Shown one piece after another: positions 7,595-58,530 of a stretch of 64,000 nt of DNA. Within the stretch, counting starts at the first letter, position 1. The number at the start of each line of letters is the position of its first letter. Origin of the DNA: Methylacidiphilales bacterium. GTDB lineage: Bacteria; Verrucomicrobiota; Verrucomicrobiia; Methylacidiphilales; UBA1321. The notes under the pieces are model-generated. The model saw nothing but the letters and a program-made list of their open reading frames with translations, was not told the DNA's origin and did no database searches. Position numbers and translations under genes: made by a program. The stretch is taken from NCBI GenBank assembly GCA_021272165.1, contig JAJSLK010000015.1, forward strand, positions 48,857 to 112,856, written 5' to 3'.

Positions 7595-10329
7595 AGTTCA
7601 ATTTCCGCCTTCCAGTCATGCGCGAGTTCGTCGAAGTAGACCTTGAACCCGGTTTGTTCGCATATGTGTTTCATCCAAAGATTGTCCCGCAACATGCGGC
7701 CCGTGATCCGGCTGAGACTTTCGTCCCGGCCAACTTCGAGGAGCAACCGCAGCAACTCAGTGCCAAGGCCCTTGTTCTGCCACGGATCGCTGACGACGAT
7801 GGCGAAGACCGCCTCGTCGAGACCGTGGACCTTGTTGAGCCGACCCACGGCAAGGATTTCGTGATAACCGTCGGGCCGCTTATAATCGACCACGAGCGGA
7901 ATTTCGCAATCGTAGTCGGTGAAGCAGATGCGGGTGAGTCGCTCGTGGGCGATGCGCTGTTCGAGGTGCAGCATGCCGAGGTAGCGCTGGTTGACCGTGG
8001 TCTCCGACAGGTTCCGGTGGAACTCGACCATGAGCGGTTCGTCCTCGGGCCGAATCGGCCGGATGGTGACCGTGGTGCCGTCCTTGAGCTTCCAGTCCGT
8101 GATGTACCGCGTCGGGTAGGGCCGGATGGCGAGCTTGGGCAGGTCCGCTTCCAGCGTGTTGGCTTCATGCAGCACCACGCGGGCATCGAGCGCGGTCATC
8201 TCGTCAGCGGAGACCAGCAGCGGGTTGATGTCGATTTCCTTGATCCAGCTCTGCTCGGTGACGAGATAGCTGAATCGGACGAGAAGTTCCTCGAGCTCGG
8301 CCATGTTGACCGACTTGCGGCCGCGGACGCCCTTGAGCGCGGTGTATATCTTGGTCTGCTCCATCATACGGCGCGCCAGCGTGGCGTTAAGCGGCGGAAG
8401 GCCGAGTGAGCGGTCCTTGAAGACCTCGACCAGTTGGCCGCCCATGCCGAACAGGAGCACCGGCCCAAACTGGGGATCGATGCTGCTGCCGAGGATGAGC
8501 TCGTAGCCTTCCATCTTGATCATCCGCTGGACGGTGACGCCGAGGAAATCGGCCCGGCTCTGCTTTTCGCAGACGGCCTTTTCAATCGCGCGGTAGGCTT
8601 CGCGCACAGCATCGGGGCCGACCAGATTGAGCTTCACCCCGCCGACGTCGGTCTTGTGGGTGATTGTCTCGGAATAGATCTTGAGGACGACGGGGCCCTC
8701 GATTTTTTCGGCGATGGCCACGGCCTCCTCTTCGCTGCGGGCAATCTGGGTCAGCACGGTCGGGATGCCGTAGGCGGCCAGGACGTGCTTGGACTCGTAT
8801 TCCGTAAGGATAGTACGACCGGCTTCGCGCGCCGTCTTGATGATTTCATCGACGTAGGCGCGGTTGGCCTTGTAGCCGACGGCTTCGAGCGTCGGACTCG
8901 GTGTCTCGTAAATGGCGCGGAGGTTATTGCTGTAACGCCACATCGAAGCGAAGGCGCGTGCGGCGGTGTCCGGGTAAGTAAACGAAGGGATGCCCCCGTG
9001 GCTGAGGATGTCGGCGCCGGGACTGACTTGCGCGCCGCCCATCCAACTGGTGAGAAGCGGCTTGTCCTTGGGCATCGGGAGTTTGGTCAGAAGTTCGGCG
9101 GTCTCGATCGACTTGGTCATCGCCTGGGGCGTGAGAATGACCAGGACGCCATCGTTTTCGTCATCCTTGGCGGCAATTTCGGCGGCCTTGGCGTAACGGA
9201 CCGGGTCGGCATCGCCGAGAACGTCGATCGGATTATTATGGCTCCAGAATGGCGGCAATAGTTCGTTGAATTGCTGGAATGCGTCTTGGGAAAGAGGAGC
9301 AATCTGGCCGCCCTCGACGATAAGGGCATCGGTGGAAAGCGCAGCGGGACCGCCGGCGTTGGTGACGATGGCCAGGCGAGGGCCTTTGGGCCGGGGCTGC
9401 TTGCCAAGCACGTGGGCCATGTTGAAGAGATCAGCGATGGCGTTGACGCGCAGGACGCCGACACGGCGGAAGGCGGCTTCGAGGACCTCGTCGCTGCCGG
9501 TCAGCGAGCCGGTGTGAGACGCGGCGGCCTTGGAGGCGGCAGCGGTGCGACCGACTTTGAGGACAATGATCGGCTTGGTCAGGGAGACTTCGCGGGCGGC
9601 GGAAAGGAAGGCCCGGGCGTCGCCGATGGTTTCCATGTAAACGACGATGCTGCGGGTATTGGGATCGTCGCCCAGGTAATAGATCAGGTCGCCCCAGCCG
9701 ACATCGAGCATGGAGCCGATGGAGATAAAAGCGCTGAAACCGACATCGTGGGTGGTGCTCCAGTCGAGGACCGCGGCACAGAGGGCGCCACTTTGGCTGA
9801 TGAAGCCGACGCTGCCGGGACGGGCCATCGGCTTGGCGAAGGTGGCGTTGAGGCCAACCGTCGGGATCATGGCGCCGAGGCAGTTCGGCCCAATGATCCG
9901 CATCTTGGCACGACGGGCCCGTTCCAGGACCTGGCGCTCCAGTTCAGCGCCTTCCGCGCCGATTTCCTTGAAGCCGGCCGAGATGATAATGGCCCCCTTG
10001 ATGCCCGCCTCGATGCATTCGGTGACCACGCCGGGAACCGTTTTGGCCGGGGTGCAGATGACCGCGAGATCGACCGGGCCGGGAACCTTGCCAATGGACG
10101 GATAGGTGGGCACGCCGAGGATGGCGGATCGCTTCGGATTGACCGGGTAAACCGTGCCATGGAACGCCTCGTCCATGAGATTTTCCATCATGGTTCGGCC
10201 AACACTGCCGAGGTTTTCGGTGGCGCCGATAAGTGCCACACTGTTGGGGGCAAGCATGGTGTCGAGGACGGGACGTCGCTGACCCAGCACATTATAGGCA
10301 TTTTCAATTCGGAGTGATTGTTGGCTCAT
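7591..10329 (-). CDS. Acetate/acyl-CoA ligase (ADP-forming) fused to a C-terminal GNAT acetyltransferase domain
   Basis: 912 aa; CoA-binding N-terminus ([22 protein letters not shown]), succinyl-CoA ligase-like and ATP-grasp regions, then GNAT-like tail ([23 protein letters not shown]...[15 protein letters not shown]). Confidence 0.9.
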
Positions 10330-10640
10330 AGGAGGACGAGGTGCGTGGTTTGGTCTTGGAATTTTTGGAAAGTGACGCTGTGATCCGGCTTCTTTGCCGG
10401 TCTTGGTTCAAACTAGTGGGTTCGTCCCGGTTCAGCTTCACCGATCTTGTCAAAGACTTGCTGTTTCCTGTTCTGGAGTATCGGCAGCAGGCCCGGATCG
10501 ATGAACAATCCCGGCAATTCCAGCGTGTAACCCGTCTCCGGAGACTGTCTTAAAATCGGCTAAGCTTTAGCCAAAAGACGATGAGATGGTCCGGGGGAGA
10601 GCGGATAACCTAGGATAATATCAACTGTCAGCCTGGATAA

Positions 10641-12323
<1,683 letters not shown>

Positions 12324-48501: not shown

Positions 48502-48547
48502 TGGGCCCTATAGGATTCGAACCTATGGCCTCCTGATCCGTAGTCAG
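48502..48547 (-). repeat. attL: 46-bp duplication of the tRNA-Arg 3' end
   Basis: tgggccctataggattcgaacctatggcctcctgatccgtagtcag, identical to 58457-58502; sequences diverge immediately outside. Confidence 0.93.
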
Positions 48548-48656
48548 TAGGACATCCCTCTCGAGCTTCCTTTTACAGAGGTAATTGCGTTTCCATTCGT
48601 TTTTAATCTTGCACGATAATGCTTGTTTTATGGGCACTATGAGGCACACTGCTTCT

Positions 48657-49847
48657 ATGCCGAAACGATCCAGTATCGCCCCGAACAAAGTTCAAGGCCG
48701 CGTCAAACCGTGGAAGATCGACCTTCCCTCCTCACTTAGTCCAACGGGAAAACGCCAACGGTTCTTCTTCGCCACTAAGCAGGAAGCTTCCAATTTTGGC
48801 GATGAACAGCGCACCCGAATTGATAACTACGGCACGGCCGGCCTCTCTGGCCTCTCCCCTGCCCAGCTTGAGCAAGCAGCCCTGGCCTTCGATGCCATCA
48901 AACCGCATGGCGTTACACTGAATGAAGCCATCAAGGAATGGTGCGCCCTGCGCGTGGCCCGCGATGCCACGGTTACGTTTTCCGTTGCCGAAGAACAGTA
49001 CATGGCTTACATCGCCACAAAAAAGGTGAAAGGCCGTCCGGTATCGGATTCTTACCGATCACAAATCAAACAAACCTTCCCCCGCTTTCCGTCCCTTCAC
49101 AGTCTCCCCCTCACCGACATTGACGGGAAGAAAATCGCCGGGGACATGGTGAAGATGACGCCAGCCACTAAAAACGCTCTCCTGCGGGTTTTAAGCGCAT
49201 TTTTCTCATGGTGTGGTCAAACCCCTCGTGAATGGATCAAGACGAATCCAGCGGCCAAGGTGCCCCGCGAAAGCATAGGTGCTGGAGAGGTTGCCCTTTA
49301 CGCCCCGGATGAAGTGAAGCGGATTTTAGCAGCGTCACCGGATGACCTCTTGCCGCATTTCCTCTTTGGCTTTTTCGCCGGAATCAGGCCAGAGGAATTA
49401 GAGCGGCTACAGTGGGAGCACGTGAACATAGCGGAGGGTCATATTGAAATGCCCGCTTCCATTACCAAGACGGCTACCCGCCGCGTTGTCGCGATTGATC
49501 CCACCCTCTCCGCTTGGTTGCGGTCGTACATTTCCCGCCGTGGAATCCCACGAGGGAACGTGACACCGTTAAAAAACCTTCGCCGCCGGTTACGGGCTAC
49601 CCGAAAAGCGGCCAAGGTGGAAACGATTCAAGACGGCATGAGGCATAGCTACGCCAGCTATTGGCTTGCCGTGAATAAGGACGAGCACCGGCTACGCGAG
49701 AACCTTGGACACCGTAGCAGCGATGAATTGTGGGATCATTACCACCGCGCTTGCACGGAAAAGGAAGCGAAGCAATTTTGGGCCATTCGACCGGAAGAGA
49801 AAAAGCAAAGGAAGATCGTTCTGTTCAAGCGGGAGAAGGCTGCATGA
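48657..49847 (+). CDS. Tyrosine-type site-specific integrase
   Basis: Catalytic-domain motifs GIRPEELERLQWEHVNI, DGMRHSYASYWLA, LGHRSSDELWDHYHR; 38-110 bp inside attL. Start at ATG 48657 (MPKRSS) preferred; the ORF is open from 48585. Confidence 0.9.
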   Translation: MPKRSSIAPNKVQGRVKPWKIDLPSSLSPTGKRQRFFFATKQEASNFGDEQRTRIDNYGTAGLSGLSPAQLEQAALAFDAIKPHGVTLNEAIKEWCALRVARDATVTFSVAEEQYMAYIATKKVKGRPVSDSYRSQIKQTFPRFPSLHSLPLTDIDGKKIAGDMVKMTPATKNALLRVLSAFFSWCGQTPREWIKTNPAAKVPRESIGAGEVALYAPDEVKRILAASPDDLLPHFLFGFFAGIRPEELERLQWEHVNIAEGHIEMPASITKTATRRVVAIDPTLSAWLRSYISRRGIPRGNVTPLKNLRRRLRATRKAAKVETIQDGMRHSYASYWLAVNKDEHRLRENLGHRSSDELWDHYHRACTEKEAKQFWAIRPEEKKQRKIVLFKREKAA

Positions 49848-50488
49848 ACTCCCCGCAGTTTCTACAGGTTTTTTTCGACATCGGCGCGAAGAGGGAATTG
49901 ATTCCGATCCATCGCCGCAACAGAACAAAGGAAACTAGGTATTTCCTTACTCGTTATCCAATCGTCAGAGATTTTCCCATAGCTATCTGGATTTCACCGC
50001 CAGCGCCCGGAAGACCTCGATTTCAAATCAGACCACGTCCGGTGGACTTTTTGGCTAAAGGCATTCGACCCAAGACCTCTTTAATATTGTTGGAAAGAGG
50101 GCAACCGGAAAATCGTCCGTGCGAACATCTGCCGCAATTCAATATCAGATGCCTGGACGAGATGATGAAGGTTGCCGAGCGATATTGGTCTTTTTTGTCG
50201 GGGAATCCTGCGCTCGCAGGTGAGGCCACCGTTAGCTCAAAGCCGAGTTTTAATTTGCTCAAGCAAAGCGGAGATAGGAGGCAAAAAGCAGAGGACGACG
50301 CAATCTGCGACCTAATGGTTTGCTACCTCTACCCTGAATGGGTGACGCGCGGGCGAAGCCTCAATAAATGCGTGGAGATATTGAAACTGGCGGTCAAGAC
50401 AAGTGGTGGCAATGGCGAATGGCTTCGCAAGGAATTACAGCGGCTGAGACTACCGGGGATGCGGGAGGCACGGAGACAGTTGGAATAA
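49844..50488 (+). CDS. Hypothetical protein, translationally coupled to the integrase
   Basis: ATGA overlap with the integrase stop (49844-49847); 214 aa MNSPQFLQVFFDIGAKRELIPIHRRN...; no family recognised. Confidence 0.7.
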   Translation: MNSPQFLQVFFDIGAKRELIPIHRRNRTKETRYFLTRYPIVRDFPIAIWISPPAPGRPRFQIRPRPVDFLAKGIRPKTSLILLERGQPENRPCEHLPQFNIRCLDEMMKVAERYWSFLSGNPALAGEATVSSKPSFNLLKQSGDRRQKAEDDAICDLMVCYLYPEWVTRGRSLNKCVEILKLAVKTSGGNGEWLRKELQRLRLPGMREARRQLE

Positions 50489-50533
50489 CAAAGTTGTCCC
50501 GGTTGTTTAGGGAATAAGTCCGATTAGGGATAA

Positions 50534-50755
50534 ATGGATAGGCACATGAGTGCCACCGACTTAGTTAGTAAACGGGAAACGGCATCGCTACTTGGCGGAC
50601 ACGGCGAGCCGGTTTCCATATCGTTTGTAAATCAGCTTCTCGCCAAGAAGAAGCTCCCCAAAGTGCGGTTGTCGTACCGCGTTTGTCGTATTCCTCGAAA
50701 AGCAGTTGAGGACTATATCGCCGCGCATACGACCGCGCAGAGGGGAGGCATCTAA
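50534..50755 (+). CDS. Small HTH/excisionase-like DNA-binding protein
   Basis: 73 aa: DLVSKRETASLLGGHGEPVSISFVNQLLAKKKLPKVRLSYRVCRIPRKAVEDYIAAH, MerR/excisionase-like pattern. Confidence 0.6.
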   Translation: MDRHMSATDLVSKRETASLLGGHGEPVSISFVNQLLAKKKLPKVRLSYRVCRIPRKAVEDYIAAHTTAQRGGI

Positions 50756-51087
50756 TGCACTCTCCTCCCGAAAACGGAAAAGCCGGATGCGGTCCTACCC
50801 GCTCCGGCCTATCCGAGAAACACAACTTTGAAACTTCAGAAACAGTAACCGATCAAGCGTTGCCCGTCAACGTGGCGCGACTCAAAAACCTAGGGGTCAG
50901 ATTCAATTACAGCACGCGGGACCGCCAGATCATCCTGCCCTGTCCGATATGCCGTGGTCGTTTGGTTCTTCACGATGAACAGCCTTGGCAATGGTGCGTT
51001 GACATCAAATGCAAATCGCGCCGTCTGACTTTTGAGCAGATCATTTACCGAATCGTGAAACCGAGCGCAGCGCAGGAGCCGGGATGA
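50755..51087 (+). CDS. Hypothetical zinc-ribbon-like protein
   Basis: 110 aa with CPICRGRLVLHDEQPWQWCVDIKC; TAATG overlap with the preceding gene. Confidence 0.6.
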   Translation: MHSPPENGKAGCGPTRSGLSEKHNFETSETVTDQALPVNVARLKNLGVRFNYSTRDRQIILPCPICRGRLVLHDEQPWQWCVDIKCKSRRLTFEQIIYRIVKPSAAQEPG

Positions 51088-51938
51088 GCGACGAGCGATG
51101 GCTCAGGTTTCCAATTGCATTGTTGGCGTACAAACCGGATGACGCGGTTTCGACGCTTACGGCAATTCTGCACTATTGCCTATATACGATTGGTGGCTCC
51201 GCACGTGCTCAGGAAATGAGCGAAGAGGATGCCTACGTCTATGCGGTGAAAAGTAATTTCACTCACTCGAAAAACTCTGAGCATGTCAGGTTCATTCGAG
51301 GCGCAAGCATCCTTGGAACTCTTAACGGGAATTGCTCGAATATGGTCAATAGCATGGACGATATTCGCGTCTATTTATCCGGGTGCGGAAGTTCCTCCGA
51401 AAACAAGGCCAACGTAAGCAGCGAATGGTTTTGGCGGGCGATGGACACAGCACGCGGAGATGGTGAAAGAGCTGAATTACGATGGCGCGATTTTCGATTC
51501 CTCTGCGCTCTCCTTTCCAAAGTTGGAACGAGAAAGTTTGATCGTTGCGGATGGCAGGAGATACAGGCCCGCGCTGCGGGATGGTGCGGGAAGGCCGCCA
51601 TGCGTGGCGCTCCGGCATCTGTCCACAAGCATCGAGCGCCGCTGATCCTCACTCAAGATCAGATCAGGACAACACGCGATGAATTGGAAGTGAACAAGTT
51701 CTTCTGCCGGGTCAAATATCGCACCGGTGGTAAGGGGAACGGCGGAGAGTCCTGGTATTCGTTCAGCACGGGCGACCGTGCCGAATTGCTCGGATGGATC
51801 ACAGAAAAGAAGATCGGCATTAGGGCCGGAATTGCGGAAAAGCGGGCGCAGGACATGGACTTAATAGCGAAAGCCCGAACCCTGCCCGAAGTAAGCCCGA
51901 AGTCACCCCGAACATTAATAGGGAAAGGCCAGATATGA
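51084..51938 (+). CDS. Hypothetical protein, candidate replication initiator
   Basis: 284 aa, ATGA overlaps at both ends; its 3' end contains CCCGAA iteron-like repeats. Function inferred from position only. Confidence 0.55.
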   Translation: MSDERWLRFPIALLAYKPDDAVSTLTAILHYCLYTIGGSARAQEMSEEDAYVYAVKSNFTHSKNSEHVRFIRGASILGTLNGNCSNMVNSMDDIRVYLSGCGSSSENKANVSSEWFWRAMDTARGDGERAELRWRDFRFLCALLSKVGTRKFDRCGWQEIQARAAGWCGKAAMRGAPASVHKHRAPLILTQDQIRTTRDELEVNKFFCRVKYRTGGKGNGGESWYSFSTGDRAELLGWITEKKIGIRAGIAEKRAQDMDLIAKARTLPEVSPKSPRTLIGKGQI

Positions 51939-52086
51939 GCCTAAAAGCCCGAACATTAATAGTGGGTCGTTTTCACCCCGAACCCACCCCGAAGGGTAGC
52001 CCGAACCTATGCCCGAACCCTACCCCGAACATTAATCAGAAAAGACTTAGTAATCAGAAAAGGCTTCTTAATCAGAAAAGACTGAG
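51875..52086 (+). repeat. Iteron-like array: ten CCCGAA-core repeats followed by three 18-bp tandem repeats
   Basis: CCCGAA at 51875, 51886, 51897, 51908, 51949, 51977, 51988, 52000, 52012, 52024 (spacing often 11-12 bp); extended CCCGAACATTAAT at 51908, 51949, 52024; taatcagaaaagrct repeats at 52033, 52051, 52069. Confidence 0.85.
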
Positions 52087-52158
52087 AATGACCCCGTGCG
52101 TGTGCTCGGCTTCGCCTTGGACTGAAGCAAGAGGGAAACAAAACCGGGAGCCGTCACC

Positions 52159-52443
52159 ATGACGCCGCTTTCCGATGGATACTATCGGCAGCAACTCCGC
52201 TGCTTTCGCATCGTCATGGGTGATGTGCGGCGAAAGGGGTCCACCGTTAAATCAATCCGGATGCGGTATGCGGCTCTCGACCTCTGGCAGAGCGAAAGGC
52301 TATCGCGCCGGGAGCATGGCAAGGTTGTTGCCCTGGCCGAGCAATTCGGAGTGACGCCGCAAGCGGTCTATAAAACGCTCTGGCGATTCGACCAAACACA
52401 AAATATAGGTTTAGAGAAATCAGAGGGCGCGAGCATCACATAG
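52159..52443 (+). CDS. Small HTH protein, hypothetical
   Basis: 94 aa with KVVALAEQFGVTPQAVYKTLWRFDQ helix-turn-helix-like segment. Confidence 0.55.
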   Translation: MTPLSDGYYRQQLRCFRIVMGDVRRKGSTVKSIRMRYAALDLWQSERLSRREHGKVVALAEQFGVTPQAVYKTLWRFDQTQNIGLEKSEGASIT

Positions 52444-52452
52444 GTTTATAGA

Positions 52453-53487
52453 ATGCAGATAGCATTTGAGTCTATACGAGAAATGAACGACAAGAACGGC
52501 ATGGAATTAATTACAAGAAGTCAGGCCACCTGGTCGCGGATGTTAAATTCCGACGACAAGATTATTCAGGCCGAAACTACCGAGATCATATCGCGCGGCG
52601 GAAAGCGTATCACCCTCCAAGATGCCGCCCGGATGTCGAAGCGCGACCTAACCACCTCTAATTTTTCAAGCGGAGGAGCATTAGTACAGACCACAACCGA
52701 AAATGAGGTTATCGAATACCTTCGACCCAAATCTACTCTGATTCGTGCGGGAGCAACCGTTTTAGAAAACGTAGCGTTACCGCGTGTCATTCCTAGTTTG
52801 GAATCGGACCCGAAAGCGACATGGCTACCTGAAAATGTTTCTGCTACTGAATCCGATATTACCGTCGCACAGCGTCAATTAACGCCTTACCGGTTGACCA
52901 CGACCGTCACCTATTCGAAGCTAGTAGATATTCAGTCTGCGCCGGACTTTGAAGCAGTTATCGCCGATGCAGCAATGGGCGCACTGATGCAAGGAATTGA
53001 TTTTGCCGGATTGCAAGGGGTCGGAGGTGCTAGTCCTGTGGGTATTCTTAATCTGGCGGGAACGGGTGAACTGAGTTTTTCCGGCGCGCCGACACTTGCA
53101 AAAATTCTCGCTTTCGAGAACTCGCTTGAATCTTCCAATGTCGTCGATGATGGCACGATGGCCTGGTTTTTAAGTCCGAGCACGGCCACAGTTTTTAAGC
53201 AGACTCTAAAAACGGGCAATAACACTGCATATCTCATGGGGGACGACGGCCGCATCAATGGTCAGAAATCATTCCAGACAACCTCTTTGTCCGCCACTAA
53301 CCAAGTCATTTATTGCAAAGCAAGTGACGTTGTTATCACTCTTCTACATGGGGGACTTTTTCTGGTCCGGGATCCGTTCACTCGTTCCGATTCTGGAGAG
53401 ACTCGATTCACCGCGACGATCTATGCCGATATCACTCTGAAACACGTCCAATCGGCCTGTATTAGCCTAGATTCCGGCTCGGTTTAA
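52453..53487 (+). CDS. HK97-type phage major capsid protein
   Basis: 344 aa; SSGGALVQTTTENEVIEYLRPKSTLIRAGATVLENV...DPKATWLPENVSATESDITVAQRQLTPYRLTTTVTYSKLVDIQS...GGLFLVRDPFTRSDSGETRFTATIYADI, the classic HK97 major-capsid pattern. Confidence 0.88.
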   Translation: MQIAFESIREMNDKNGMELITRSQATWSRMLNSDDKIIQAETTEIISRGGKRITLQDAARMSKRDLTTSNFSSGGALVQTTTENEVIEYLRPKSTLIRAGATVLENVALPRVIPSLESDPKATWLPENVSATESDITVAQRQLTPYRLTTTVTYSKLVDIQSAPDFEAVIADAAMGALMQGIDFAGLQGVGGASPVGILNLAGTGELSFSGAPTLAKILAFENSLESSNVVDDGTMAWFLSPSTATVFKQTLKTGNNTAYLMGDDGRINGQKSFQTTSLSATNQVIYCKASDVVITLLHGGLFLVRDPFTRSDSGETRFTATIYADITLKHVQSACISLDSGSV

Positions 53488-53591
53488 ATCATGTCTTTAT
53501 CCTCCATAATTTGGACGGCGGGTCGGGGTGGTTTTCCCCCGGTGCCGATCATACACCGGTCTTTTCCGGCCCGCCGCTCCATTGAAATTGT

Positions 53592-53891
53592 ATGACATAT
53601 CCGATTATTTTGCTTCGCAGCGGACAGTTCCATTTTACTGGCCATGAGACGAAATCGAAATTTCGCAGCGGAGGCACTGTCGTCGCGGATTGCGACCGGG
53701 ATCTTGCGCTCTGGCTTGTGACTTGCGGGTATGGCCGACTTTGGGAAGGCAACGATCTTCCCTCGAATCCCGAGCGAATCGAATACCTCGACCCCACTCT
53801 TGAACGAAGCCGTCGCAATAAAATCTCGCGGGCGCGTGAGGAATTTATAATTCAGTGCGCCATCGCAGAAGCCGAGTCAACCCAACAGTAA
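53592..53891 (+). CDS. Hypothetical protein downstream of capsid
   Basis: 99 aa co-oriented ORF; no family recognised. Confidence 0.5.
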   Translation: MTYPIILLRSGQFHFTGHETKSKFRSGGTVVADCDRDLALWLVTCGYGRLWEGNDLPSNPERIEYLDPTLERSRRNKISRAREEFIIQCAIAEAESTQQ

Positions 53892-53916
53892 CCCAAAAAA
53901 ACAAAGGAAAATCCCC

Positions 53917-54393
53917 ATGCTAACCATGTCGTCATCCGCCCTCAAACCCAACGTCGAAACCCGTATGCGCCCTGGTGTCCAGACAGCGCCGCGGCTCGAA
54001 TACCGGGTGCGTATCCTTAGGGACACGATCCTATCGCGCGAAGTCGGACGCGATGCGCTCAACCGTCCGAAGTTTAAGGGCGAACAAATCTTCAAGGGCA
54101 GCGTGATTGATGTGTTCCTAGATCAATGGCCGAATTTGCGCGATACCCTCTCTGCGGTGCGCGTTGATGACACTACGCCCTTATTCGACGCGCAGCCGGC
54201 GCTAGACCCATCCACTCAACGCCCGGCCCGTTTCCTCGAATTGGTAGGCAATGGCCTTAATTCCATCGCAGACCTTGCGACAGAGTTGGCGACGACCAAG
54301 GCAACCATTGCCAGCATCGCCAGCAAGTTCATCGCGGACGGAGCGCTTAAAGTGAACGACCGGGGCTTGTATGTCCTCGCTAAGAAAGCCTGA
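53917..54393 (+). CDS. Hypothetical protein downstream of capsid
   Basis: 158 aa co-oriented ORF; no family recognised. Confidence 0.5.
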   Translation: MLTMSSSALKPNVETRMRPGVQTAPRLEYRVRILRDTILSREVGRDALNRPKFKGEQIFKGSVIDVFLDQWPNLRDTLSAVRVDDTTPLFDAQPALDPSTQRPARFLELVGNGLNSIADLATELATTKATIASIASKFIADGALKVNDRGLYVLAKKA

Positions 54394-54566
54394 GACATTT
54401 GCCTCTCGACTTACGCATAATACAAGTCAAAGCGAGCATCAAACTCGGCATCTATTCTGCCAGCGACTCCATTGATAATAAGGTACTTCCGAATGATTCA
54501 GGAGCATTGCCGGTTCCGTTTTATTAATAATCTGGTAATACAAGTTTTCGTAAATCGTACACTACA

Positions 54567-55004
54567 ATGAGAACGAAAAAAAATCAGGCAAAGGAAACGT
54601 GGATCAAGACAAAGCTTGAGCTGGCGCGGCTCCTGAAAATCAGCCGCACGACGCTGGACACCTTTATCACCCTCGAAGGTTTTCCCTCGAAGCGGGCGGA
54701 CGGCGCGTGGCCATTGGAGAAAATCCGGTCATTCACCGCCAAGAGATTAGGCCGAGACGAGGAGGCCCGAAGCCTGAAGCTTCAACGGTTGCGCCTTCAG
54801 GTTGAACGCTCCGATCGTGAACTTGAGGCCGAGGCCGGAAAGTACGTTGCCCGCGAAGCACTCTTCGATCTGGTTGCGAATTACAAACGGGAGACCCTTA
54901 AAATCGTTCGGGCATTTGGGATGGATTCTGACGCGAAGGCAAGGATTCTGGCGGGCATCGACGCCATCGACGCGGAAGCCTTCCTTAAGGAATTGACGGC
55001 ATGA
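54567..55004 (+). CDS. Nu1-like small terminase subunit / DNA-packaging protein
   Basis: 145 aa; N-terminal wHTH (LELARLLKISRTTLDTFITLEGFPSKRADGAWPLEKIRSFTAKRLG) plus KLQRLRLQVERSDRELEAEAGKYVAREAL, the Nu1/terminase-small pattern. Confidence 0.72.
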   Translation: MRTKKNQAKETWIKTKLELARLLKISRTTLDTFITLEGFPSKRADGAWPLEKIRSFTAKRLGRDEEARSLKLQRLRLQVERSDRELEAEAGKYVAREALFDLVANYKRETLKIVRAFGMDSDAKARILAGIDAIDAEAFLKELTA

Positions 55005-55282
55005 ACGCTGAGGATGAAATCTTTGAGCTTAAGCGCCGCCTTTTGAAGAACGGAATTTCGATGGAGCAAGTGGCCAAGTTACGGGCAGAGGGCGAACTGA
55101 TTTTGACGGAATTTGCCAGCATGACCCTGGCACACCTTGCCGTCTCGACCCGCAACGCGATTGGAGAGTCAGATTTGAGCGAGGCCGATAAGGAAGCACT
55201 TAGGGAACAAATCGTGGCCATAGATGCCAATGGATTCGTGCGGCACGCATACGAACAAAGAGAAGCGGAGATCGACGAATGA
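55001..55282 (+). CDS. Hypothetical protein
   Basis: 93 aa; ATGA overlaps with the Nu1-like gene and the next ORF. Confidence 0.5.
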   Translation: MNAEDEIFELKRRLLKNGISMEQVAKLRAEGELILTEFASMTLAHLAVSTRNAIGESDLSEADKEALREQIVAIDANGFVRHAYEQREAEIDE

Positions 55283-55479
55283 GCTATCACTTTAAGGACA
55301 ATAACCGCGCCCGCGTGGATAAGGAAATCGAGCGTCAACTAAGCGTGCTTTTCCGCCGTGCGCAGAGAGAGCAAGTCAGGCAGGAAAAGGCCAAGCCCCG
55401 GATACTTACTGCGGAGCAATTCGGGAAGATCATGCAAGCCGAGTGGCGCAAAGTGTGGGGACGTTTAAAGAAGCCATGA
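55279..55479 (+). CDS. Hypothetical protein
   Basis: 66 aa; ATGA overlap with upstream ORF. Confidence 0.45.
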   Translation: MSYHFKDNNRARVDKEIERQLSVLFRRAQREQVRQEKAKPRILTAEQFGKIMQAEWRKVWGRLKKP

Positions 55480-55661
55480 AAGGCCGCACCCGCCAACGGC
55501 TCGACCAGCTCGCCCGGATTGAACAGGCACCGTTGCCGCCGTCACTGGCAGAGGCATTCGAGGCCGTCGAAAACTTGGACGCCCGGCACCCTACGGCACG
55601 CGGCACTACCTACGCCGGGATACGCACCGCAGAGACGCGCGGCGGGCAGAGGGAGAAGTGA
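55443..55661 (+). CDS. Hypothetical protein
   Basis: 72 aa co-oriented ORF; may instead start at ATG 55476 with an ATG-stop overlap. Confidence 0.4.
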   Translation: MAQSVGTFKEAMKGRTRQRLDQLARIEQAPLPPSLAEAFEAVENLDARHPTARGTTYAGIRTAETRGGQREK

Positions 55662-56184
55662 GGGGGCTAAGCCTTGCGTGAACGCACGCGCCAGAAGGCG
55701 AGCAAGCCAAGACCGCCGAGCAGCATTGCCCATGTCGAGGGTTCGGGTGAGGCTAATAATTCAAAGTCAAAAGAGTAGCCGGGCAAGGGATAGCTAAAGC
55801 CGCGGGAAGGTGCGTATGTGTACGCTATTGAAGCTGGGCCGAGTGTTGTTGTCTCTGCCTCAAATCCAAATTTTTCGTAGGGGTTATCATCGTCGGTTAT
55901 ACCTAAATAATACTCTGTTCCGGCGACTAAGTTAAGTGGACTGTCAAGAGTGCCGGTAAAACTGTAATTTCCATCGTTTATGTGCGGAGGAGCAAATAAT
56001 AATGTGCGATTCAAAATTGTAAGCGTACTAGTGGCGATAAGAGTACTTGGCTCTATCGTACCTAGGTCGTGTTTGCAAAATCGATTCTTATCTCAGAAAC
56101 CTTTCGATCAGCCCCAGCAGCAGCTTCATAGCCGTGCTCTTGCTCGCACCTTGCCCGTGCTCAAAAATCCCTCTACCCTCGCGC

Positions 56185-56886
56185 ATGCGCTTGATCCTCG
56201 CCGTCCTCCTGCTCGTCCTCGCGCTACGTGGTGCCACAGCCGCACCCGCCACCCCCGAGGCCTTCATCGCCGCGATCAAGAGCGCCATCGCCGCGAAAAG
56301 AGCCGATCAAATTCTCGCGCTGACTTACACCATGGGAATGAGCGATGCCGACAAGGAGATGACTCCCTCCATCGATAAATTCCTCCTCTTCGCCAATCCC
56401 GTTACCAATATATCTTTCTTCCCTCTTCCACCGTACTACCTCCCAGCGGTTTACGTCTCGCACGGCAAAAAAAGCGAGCTGACGACTAAGCCACGAGGCA
56501 TGGTGTTCATCGGATTTGACCCAGACTCCGGCAACGGCGCTCGGAACACACTTCTCCCGTACGCCGTCATCGACGGCAGGTACTATCTCGTTGGCAGCAA
56601 GACCACCGACTTGGACTGGAAAGGGCCGCCCGACAAAACGCTATCCTTTATGGTCATGGGGCAGGGGACAAATAGCGTCCGCGTCCATATAAAGTGGGAC
56701 GCCAGCGGCGTCGAGCTGGAACGCATAATTCCAAGCGGCTCCTCCGGCTTCATGGGCCAGTATTTTGAAAGTGTGAAGGTCGTCTGCTCCGCCTCCTCCG
56801 CCGATCTCACGCTGGAACTCATGGAAAACGGCAAGGACATCGCACCGGTCCTCAAGGGCAAAGGCAGCATTACTTATAGCAAGTAA
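56185..56886 (+). CDS. Secreted hypothetical protein (passenger of the IS element)
   Basis: ~233 aa with signal peptide MRLILAVLLLVLALRGATAAPATPEAFIAAIKSAIAAKRADQ; lies wholly between the IS ends, convergent with the transposase. Confidence 0.7.
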   Translation: MRLILAVLLLVLALRGATAAPATPEAFIAAIKSAIAAKRADQILALTYTMGMSDADKEMTPSIDKFLLFANPVTNISFFPLPPYYLPAVYVSHGKKSELTTKPRGMVFIGFDPDSGNGARNTLLPYAVIDGRYYLVGSKTTDLDWKGPPDKTLSFMVMGQGTNSVRVHIKWDASGVELERIIPSGSSGFMGQYFESVKVVCSASSADLTLELMENGKDIAPVLKGKGSITYSK

Positions 56887-57012
56887 CGAAGCTTTAGCTG
56901 ATGTAAGGTCTGCGTAGCAGACGTTATGGCAGGCACTTGATGCTGCAGTCGCAAATTGTCGATGCTCCCGAAATCGTGTAGTGTACAGTTTGAACTATGG
57001 CACTCTTCAAAA

Positions 57013-57663
57013 TTATTTAAGCCAGTCGAAGACGGAAGCGACCAGAACAAAATTCAGGAAGGTGATTGCCAACTTTTCATATCGAGTGGATACGCGCTTG
57101 TAAACTTTGATCCGCTGAAAGAAGTTCTCGATTTTGTGGCGCTGGCGATAAAAGCCCCGGTGACACCATGCTGGTGAACGTCGTCCCGATCTGGGTGGAA
57201 CGCAAGCAAGACAATCTTGAGCCAACATCTTTTCCCTCAGGGCATCAGCATCAAACCCCTTGTCTCCAACCAGCAAGACACGCTTAAGATTGCCGAGAAG
57301 AGGAGCAGCAGCCTCCACTTCATACATTTGCCCCGGTGCCAACACCGCTGCCATCAGTCGTCCATTGCCTTCGACCAGAGCGCAGAGCTTGGTATTCAAT
57401 CCGCCCTTAGTGCGTCCAATGGCTTGGGCCTGTTGTCCCCCGGCAGGATTGCAGCCAAACTGGTGAAGCTTGATGTGGGAGCCATCGATAAAACGAACGC
57501 AACCCTCAGCATGCGCGGATAAAAGGCGAAGGATTTCCTGCCACAAACCCAAGGCGCACCAGCGTCGCCACCGGCTGTAAACAGAGTTCCACGGCCCATA
57601 GATTGCTGGCAAGTCTCGCCATGCCACCGCTGTGCGCAGCACATAAACAATCGCCTCAACCAT
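57013..57663 (-). CDS. IS5-family transposase (main ORF)
   Basis: VLRTAVAWRDLPAIYGPWNSVYSRWRRW, GGLNTKLCALVEGNGR, LLVGDKGFDADALRE, RHKIENFFQRIKVYKRVSTRYEKLAITFLNFV (DDE signatures). N-terminus continues upstream in another frame. Confidence 0.88.
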   Translation of the reverse strand: MVEAIVYVLRTAVAWRDLPAIYGPWNSVYSRWRRWCALGLWQEILRLLSAHAEGCVRFIDGSHIKLHQFGCNPAGGQQAQAIGRTKGGLNTKLCALVEGNGRLMAAVLAPGQMYEVEAAAPLLGNLKRVLLVGDKGFDADALREKMLAQDCLACVPPRSGRRSPAWCHRGFYRQRHKIENFFQRIKVYKRVSTRYEKLAITFLNFVLVASVFDWLK

Positions 57664-58456
57664 CAGCCGATCATCCTTGGGAGGTCGCCCTCGGCGACGA
57701 TTAACTTGACTACCTAGTAAACTAGTTCTGGCCCGCTTAGCTTAATTTTTTTACCCGCCGCCAGAGCAGGTCCGACAAATGAAACCGACTATGTGTGTTG
57801 AGCATCTTGGTTGCCCATTCGGACGCCACCTCACATCTCGTTGTTCAATCTTTTTGATTTTTAAAACACGCCCTAGGGTGCCTGTTGGCGCAACGTTATA
57901 GAGACTTAAGGTAAAGCTATCGGATGTTGGGGCAGGAGTGGTATTCGATGCCCCATTTGCGAAATATCCTCCCCCAAATATAATTTCATTTGCCGTGCCA
58001 CTTACTTCGGGCGTCAACGCATCCCCAGCCATCGTTTGAGTTGAGTAGTTAGCGTCTGCATAATAGTAGGTACCACCTGCTGGGTTAGGACTTCCGTTAT
58101 CAAAAATGATCTGTGCATCGGCGAGTTGAATACCCAACCAGAAACAAATCATACTCAGTGTAGTAACCGAGAATGTTTTCAGTTCAAAAGCCAGTGACAT
58201 TACGCCATCGACCCTAAAAGTAAAACGGAGCGAAGCAAACAAAAACCCCGCCCCGGCGTGAGCTGAGACGGGGAATCAAACTTATCAAACAGTGGTAGCT
58301 GACAGGTAATAGGCCGACACGTATTGGGGTGAACACCCTACGCCGCTCCTAAGCCATCTTGAGCGCAAGGCGGACTTGTTTGGGCACCATTCGGGCACTA
58401 CGTCAAAATATCGTCTCTAAATGCACCCTATTTTGAGGTTGGTTTTACCTCTGAAG

Positions 58457-58530
58457 TGGGCCCTATAGGATTCGAACCTATGGCCTCCTGATCCGTAGTC
58501 AGGCGCTCTAATCCGCTGAGCTAAGGGCCC
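58457..58530 (-). tRNA. tRNA-Arg(ACG)
   Basis: 74-nt cloverleaf on minus strand: GGGCCCT-TA-GCTCAGCGGATTAGAGC-G-CCTGACTACGGATCAGG-AGGCC-ATAGGTTCGAATCCTAT-AGGGCCC-A. Confidence 0.95.

Follow-up and report, generated by a model that had tools for sequence, protein, structure and literature searches.

What is the function of the dense run of CCCGAA hexamers that begins inside the 3' end of a 284-aa open reading frame in the genome of a Methylacidiphilales bacterium? The stretch of DNA that we analyzed, hereafter the window, is 64,000 nucleotides long, and a preliminary description of it had proposed that the repeats are iterons lying at the end of a mobile element's replication initiator gene. 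Judged from the sequence, this remains the best reading. Our analysis indicates that positions 51874-52086 are probably a theta-type origin, used by a 10-kb, satellite-like integrative element and driven by an initiator from a new winged-helix family.

Iterons and A-rich repeats in the window

A pattern scan of the window found ten CCCGAA cores within 156 bp, all on the + strand, with starts at 51874, 51885, 51896, 51907, 51948, 51977, 51988, 52000, 52012, and 52024. The preliminary description had given ten cores in about 155 bp beginning at 51875; the count holds, and the placement is right to within one base, the first core starting at 51874. The array does start in the 3' end of the 284-aa gene (51084-51938), as described. 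Successive cores are 11, 11, 11, 41, 29, 11, 12, 12, and 12 bp apart, and the predominance of 11-12-bp spacings (seven of nine) is borne out (P ~5e-6 for at least seven of nine spacings of 11 or 12 bp, given ten cores in 156 bp). The density is far above that of shuffled sequence: 2000 dinucleotide-shuffled versions of 51084-52450 had at most three cores per 156 bp, and shuffles of the array's own 220 bp at most five.

Nine of the cores form two regular blocks (51874-51912 and 51977-52029), and the remaining one stands between them. Iteron block A (51874-51919, + strand) has four copies at 11 bp, the last of which has the extended form CCCGAACATTAAT. The same form is taken by the single iteron (51948-51960, +) and by the final copy (52024-52036) of iteron block B, which has five copies at 11-12 bp (51977-52036, +). 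The three extended cores noted earlier are thereby located at 51907, 51948, and 52024.

Two features are absent from the preliminary description, namely the tRNA borders of the element, discussed below, and a functional unit distinct from the iterons, made up of A-rich 18-bp repeats. The 18-bp repeat TAATCAGAAAAGACTTAG occurs in about 2.8 copies at 52033-52083, with the end at 52086 when ungapped repeat families are used. The AT content that the preliminary description proposed to plot is 69% at 52030-52090 (46% A) compared with 44% in the iterons. We predict that 52033-52086, with its three 18-bp repeats that are A-rich on the + strand, is a DNA unwinding element. No DnaA box, a feature of many though not all iteron-type theta origins, was found near the array, the nearest one-mismatch match being more than 2 kb away, and a search with the paired-core pattern found no second site in the whole 2.87-Mb assembly.

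In the window, iteron block A ends in CATTAAT, and a single A-rich unit, GGGAAAGGC (51921-51929; the whole segment spans 51907-51929), comes after it, which gives the block the appearance of an older and incomplete version of the entire origin. Partial second copies of the origin also occur at two homologous loci, L033 and L005. The array runs into the next small open reading frame, as had been stated, but only in a mechanical sense: the 75-aa frame concerned (51935-52162) simply spans the repeats and is unlikely to be a gene.

The integrative element and the 284-aa protein

A perfect 46-bp direct repeat, corresponding to the 3' part of tRNA-Arg(ACG), places the array inside a 10-kb element (48502-58502). 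The left copy, attL (48502-48547), is the 3' end of a tRNA-Arg, and the right copy, attR (58457-58502), lies within an intact tRNA-Arg(ACG) gene (58456-58530, - strand). The tyrosine integrase (48585-49847, +; Pfam Phage_integrase E 3e-8, phrog_1 E 2e-33) starts 38 bp inward of the left att copy. It is followed by a gene for a 252-aa protein without assignment, a small HTH gene that is excisionase/AlpA-like (50534-50755, +; HTH_17 E 1.5e-4, below cut-off; phrog_66 excisionase E 7.5e-4), and a gene for a small protein with a zinc-ribbon/Lar-like motif (50755-51087, +; Lar_restr_allev E 2e-4, below cut-off), the stop of which overlaps the start of the 284-aa gene. Beyond the array are a small HTH protein with weak HTH matches only (52159-52443, +), an HK97-type major capsid protein (52453-53487, +; Phage_capsid E 3e-21, phrog_617 E 2e-37), an HTH protein matched only by phrog_66 (54567-55004, +; E 4e-4), the layout of which may resemble that of Nu1-type terminase small subunits, and an IS4/5-type transposase inserted within the element (57013-57663, -; DDE_Tnp_1 E 6e-15, DUF4096). 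Besides the capsid and transposase there are several further small proteins without assignment. The right part of the element also has a protein with a PEP-CTERM sorting signal (55667-56014, -), which could be cargo or a host gene.

Neither a portal nor a terminase large subunit was found in the element, and no gene in it has a recognizable match to a helicase, primase, or pri-rep gene in Pfam or PHROGs. A search for the empty site in genus relatives showed that they retain the tRNA-Arg; the empty att site is not recognizable in them because the flanks are too diverged. The element is best read as integrative and phage-satellite-like.

The 284-aa protein, encoded on the + strand, has no match in Pfam or PHROGs up to E = 1 and no relative among 50,697 phage or 72,556 plasmid records. 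The first genome searches gave three diverged homologues, and the resulting four-member alignment, used as the next profile, found a homologue in 15 of 68 genomes of one family as well as in G647 of another. In all, the profile searches identified about 17 diverged homologues, all in Verrucomicrobiota. The L046 homologue is from an Akkermansiaceae MAG, and the same search names Verrucomicrobium sp. BvORR034 and Verrucomicrobiaceae MAGs. A match in G403 (E 2.5e-4) was set aside, as it sits within the 804-aa frame that encodes another protein.

Fourteen aligned members gave nothing convincing in Pfam, PHROGs, NCBIfam, or the PDB. The Rep_3 (RepE/TrfA-type) families were not matched in Pfam, NCBIfam, or the PDB, and at E 1 neither Pfam nor PHROGs gave a match to a phage O family. 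There was one weak match to a replication initiation family (phrog_1408, E 0.08). The only low E-value, for deoxyribonuclease IV (TIGR00587, 5e-4), was confined to a single member and looks incidental.

The conserved positions of the family are clustered (REFRVLCAILS ... IQARACGY ... LTRxQIRxTLDxLExxGFFARVRY) in a stretch that, from its sequence, would form a winged helix. Structure prediction, which the preliminary description had proposed as a check for a winged-helix Rep fold, succeeded for one member but not for the window protein itself. AlphaFold gave a poor model of the latter (pLDDT 64) and a good one of the L044 homologue (pLDDT 90, pTM 0.85), in which an N-terminal strand-helix domain precedes a helix-strand-helix-helix-helix-strand-strand unit and a long helix. 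The winged helix is clear in the C-terminal half of the L044 model, which is predicted with confidence; an unrelated fold would have spoken against the proposed role. Rep_3 initiators have two winged-helix domains, and the N-terminal strand-helix part of the model is ambiguous in this respect. Fold matches to this model were weak, none below E 1e-3, and among the matches listed nearly all were winged-helix proteins. Archaeal Orc1/Cdc6 was one of them, as was RepE54, the initiator of mini-F, with about 275 columns aligned and a TM of only 0.29-0.35. A fold search against viral models gave weak matches that include replication protein O. The 284-aa protein, with its predicted C-terminal winged helix, is likely a member of a new, previously unnamed family of replication initiators. 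One of the homologous genes (L006 8411-9190, in G365) has an in-frame TAG after about 50 codons and may therefore be decaying; the adjoining array looks intact.

Homologous loci, solo copies, and other readings of the array

At 11 homologue loci we found a common order, in which the gene is followed by lineage-specific iterons 11-12 bp apart, a near-constant junction YCAAC-ATWA (with the variants CAAC, GAAC, or CCAC joined to ATWA), and two to four A-rich units, GAGAAAGRC, at intervals of 14-18 bp. This arrangement is 3' of the gene and on the gene strand in L006, L007, L030, L031, L032, L033, L034, and L046. It is still behind the gene but on the opposite strand in L035 and L037 (CAACATTTA and CAACGTCTA, respectively), and L005 has a complete origin copy 1.9 kb upstream together with an iteron remnant at the gene end. 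The array is within the 3' end of the gene in L034 and partly so in L005; it lies wholly past the stop codon in L033, L031, L032, L046, and L007.

Comparison of the layouts locus by locus indicates that the iterons vary by lineage, whereas the junction and the purine-rich repeats hardly change. The window goes from CCCGAA through GAACATTAA to three AGAAAAGRC units. In L046, GGCCAAGGTT-type repeats every 11-12 bp are followed by GGCCAACATAA and three TGAGAAATCC-type units, and in L034, CACCAA-type repeats are followed by CACCAACATAA and GGAGAAAGAC units. L033 has CGCCAA, CGCCAACATAA, and four GAGAAAGRC units, and L032 has CCGCATT repeats and then CCCCAA repeats before CCCCAACATAA and three units. 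Three units also follow CCAGCAA every 11 bp and CGCAACATTAA in L031, and CAAC-type repeats and CAACATTAA in L007 and L030, while L006 has AACCAC every 12 bp, CCACATTAA, and two units.

Chains of at least three GAGAAAGRC-like sites (eight of nine positions matched, 12-20 bp apart) were sought on both strands of 333 kb of loci. Nine were found, eight of them within 400 bp after the gene and the ninth being the L005 upstream copy, with none elsewhere; the reversed-sequence control gave two. The window's own A-rich repeats fit the consensus less well and were left out of this count, and the counts are not fully independent and are more a description than a test because the consensus was drawn from the same loci. 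An index of 11/12-bp self-similarity that uses no motif had its locus-wide maximum at the place of the array in seven of 17 loci and placed it within the top 3% of windows in six more. There is no recognizable array behind the gene in L036, L039, or L040; L041 has A-rich repeats only, at about 17 bp, and L038 and L042 have iterons, the canonical junction being absent. A stricter DNA pattern had no match in 385 genomes of the class, yet it also missed known sites and is uninformative.

In nine loci, including the window, the initiator-type gene has a tyrosine integrase gene upstream, and these integrases belong to two clusters; a small HTH gene is ahead of the initiator-type gene in ten homologue loci. 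Four further elements are bounded by tRNA att repeats: L036 (tRNA-Thr, 47 bp; element of 8.4 kb), L038 (tRNA-Thr, 50 bp; 6.0 kb), L040 (tRNA-Leu, 56 bp; 5.7 kb), and L046 (tRNA-Pro, 29 bp; 9.2 kb). Comparison of genes across loci found no shared capsid family and no shared downstream gene family. L046 has two adjacent terminase small subunit genes (10035-11249; PF03592), a packaging trait of phage satellites, and L036 has a HigB/HigA toxin-antitoxin pair (10054-10689) right behind the initiator-type gene, at the place that the array occupies in other elements.

In the Verrucomicrobium-type loci L007, L030, and L031, gene and array occur beside the same TonB-receptor-like region with no recognized integrase, as if fixed in the chromosome. 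A role as chromosomal origin in these relatives was considered and rejected. In the complete genome G571, with GC skew computed every 0.4 Mb, the sign changes near 0/8.2 Mb and near 4.0 Mb and dnaA is at 5.09 Mb; the initiator-type gene, at 4.78 Mb, is at neither a skew switch nor dnaA.

We searched 68 genomes for solo copies with a DNA-only pattern consisting of the junction and two units. There were ten matches in five genomes, each of which has an initiator-type gene, and the reversed sequence used as control had no match; because these five genomes helped define the pattern, only its absence from the gene-less genomes is informative. Half of the ten matches have no recognizable initiator gene within about 8 kb (less at contig ends): L058 (8426), L059 (5111), L060 (2445), L061 (8201, - strand), and L062 (8504). 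All five also carry iterons, a short set in L060. L058 is similar to L031 around the origin and as far as the gene's stop-codon region, L059 has 226 bp like the gene end and origin of L034, and L062 has a 28-bp match to the L005 gene. In L058 and L062 there are tRNA genes within about 0.5 kb. These copies are probably relics of decayed elements. A broader proposal, which we regard as unlikely, is that gene and array belong to an undescribed initiator-origin family of Verrucomicrobiota mobile elements in which iterons drift with their initiator, the junction YCAAC-ATWA and GAGAAAGRC stay fixed, and solo origins dispersed over the host chromosome can be fired in trans by a resident initiator as non-autonomous passengers.

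The same loci bear on other functions for the array. It could be an operator through which the 284-aa protein regulates the transcription of downstream genes (HTH and capsid), since it lies between the 284-aa gene and the capsid gene, and winged-helix regulators are common and are among the fold matches. We think this improbable, as the array stays with the initiator-type gene while no downstream family is common to the loci, is inverted in L035 and L037, and occurs in solo form in unrelated chromosomal settings; moreover, ten iterons and three A-rich repeats far exceed the needs of an operator. The spacing of one helical turn would also suit a partition centromere, as iterons of this kind together with a small DNA-binding protein are typical of centromeres too, and in plasmid segregation iterons of 10-12 bp are bound by proteins with a winged-helix or ribbon-helix fold, TubR and ParR for example. 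We found no ParA, ParM, or TubZ-like NTPase in the window element, however, and the array is behind the gene instead of at its promoter, with a second, A-rich repeat set at a fixed place that a centromere does not need, which makes this function very improbable. There is even less to recommend a packaging (pac/cos) site or an accessory site for excision or integration: the window element has a capsid gene, and L046 has terminase small subunits, which bind repeats, but the array tracks the initiator-type gene, the capsid family is not common to the loci, and the array is more than 3 kb from attL and not at an att site. Finally, the possibility that the repeats encode a low-complexity tail and are conserved at the amino-acid level, suggested by the proline-rich translation of the L034 array, has next to no probability, codon-level repeats being ruled out by cores in all three frames and most homologue arrays lying past the stop codon.

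Proposed mechanism and relation to known origins

For the preferred reading, an origin with its own initiator, we infer that the element replicates by the 51874-52086 module through DNA binding, melting, and use of the host helicase. The 284-aa protein would bind the CCCGAA iterons by its winged helix, with one protomer per helical turn along a single face of the 11-12-bp spaced array. The bound array would then melt the adjoining A-rich repeats (52033-52086), the repeated sequence of which is likely read as a single strand by the initiator, and host helicase and replisome would be loaded there, giving an excised circle able to multiply. Loading of the host helicase by the initiator is suggested because there is no DnaA box nearby and no recognizable helicase or primase in the element.

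Iterons of the plasmids RK2 and F are 17-22 bp apart. Like RK2 oriV with TrfA and F oriS with RepE, the window has direct repeats next to an AT-rich segment, predicted to unwind, that contains short repeats of its own, and, like Rep_3-type systems, it has a winged-helix initiator for its iterons, predicted in this case. RK2 is the closest worked-out parallel. TrfA occupies the RK2 iterons, the unwinding element next to them opens, and one of its strands is bound by TrfA via four 13-mers, all of which are needed (PMC4081077). In the present module the same parts lie side by side and in the same order. Unlike RK2 and F, iterons of the window type are only 11-12 bp apart, no DnaA boxes were seen, the unwinding repeats are GAGAAAGRC and not TAAACnTTnTTTT, the initiator has no Pfam or PDB family match, and the carrier is an integrative element. 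Lambda ori, within gene O, likewise has iterons at or in the initiator gene and an adjoining A-rich segment, and uses the host helicase, as may be the case here; replication protein O is among the weak viral fold matches. In contrast to lambda, the array is behind the gene in most homologues, no helicase-loader gene (P) was recognized, and phage O families were not matched at E 1.

In PICIs the origin is just 3' of the initiator gene (PMC6092414). The window element resembles them in being a small, integrase-encoding element in an att repeat and in having the order integrase, small HTH, initiator, and origin 3' of the initiator, and its relative L046 has the terminase small subunit of PICIs and other satellites. 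Unlike PICIs, it has no primase-type Pri-Rep, and, at about 10 kb, it retains a capsid gene (52453-53487), whereas PICIs are characterized by the absence of phage structural genes. Escherichia coli PICIs have two iteron sets flanking an AT-rich part (PMC6092414); here the iterons are on one side only. The RepA of the Vibrio cholerae PLE is another initiator with no predicted helicase or primase activity, has iterons in its own origin, and its means of replisome recruitment is likewise open (PMC7145576). The PLE is similarly a satellite-type element, and it differs in the RepA_N-type N-terminal domain of its initiator, its semi-palindromic iterons, and its large serine recombinase.

An iteron origin is a known kind of origin; the novelty here lies in the family of initiators, in an origin whose two-part layout is conserved, and in a group of Verrucomicrobiota elements bounded by tRNA repeats. 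The mobile elements of this phylum, including those of the Akkermansiaceae, have been little studied, and we found only passing mentions of phage satellites in Verrucomicrobiota in the literature. The protein family, the origin layout, and the att borders together provide a means of finding such elements. With diverged initiator-iteron pairs and a near-constant unwinding motif, the shift of an initiator from double-stranded iterons to single-stranded repeats becomes directly testable. If the origin works, it would be a basis for shuttle vectors in a phylum with few genetic tools.
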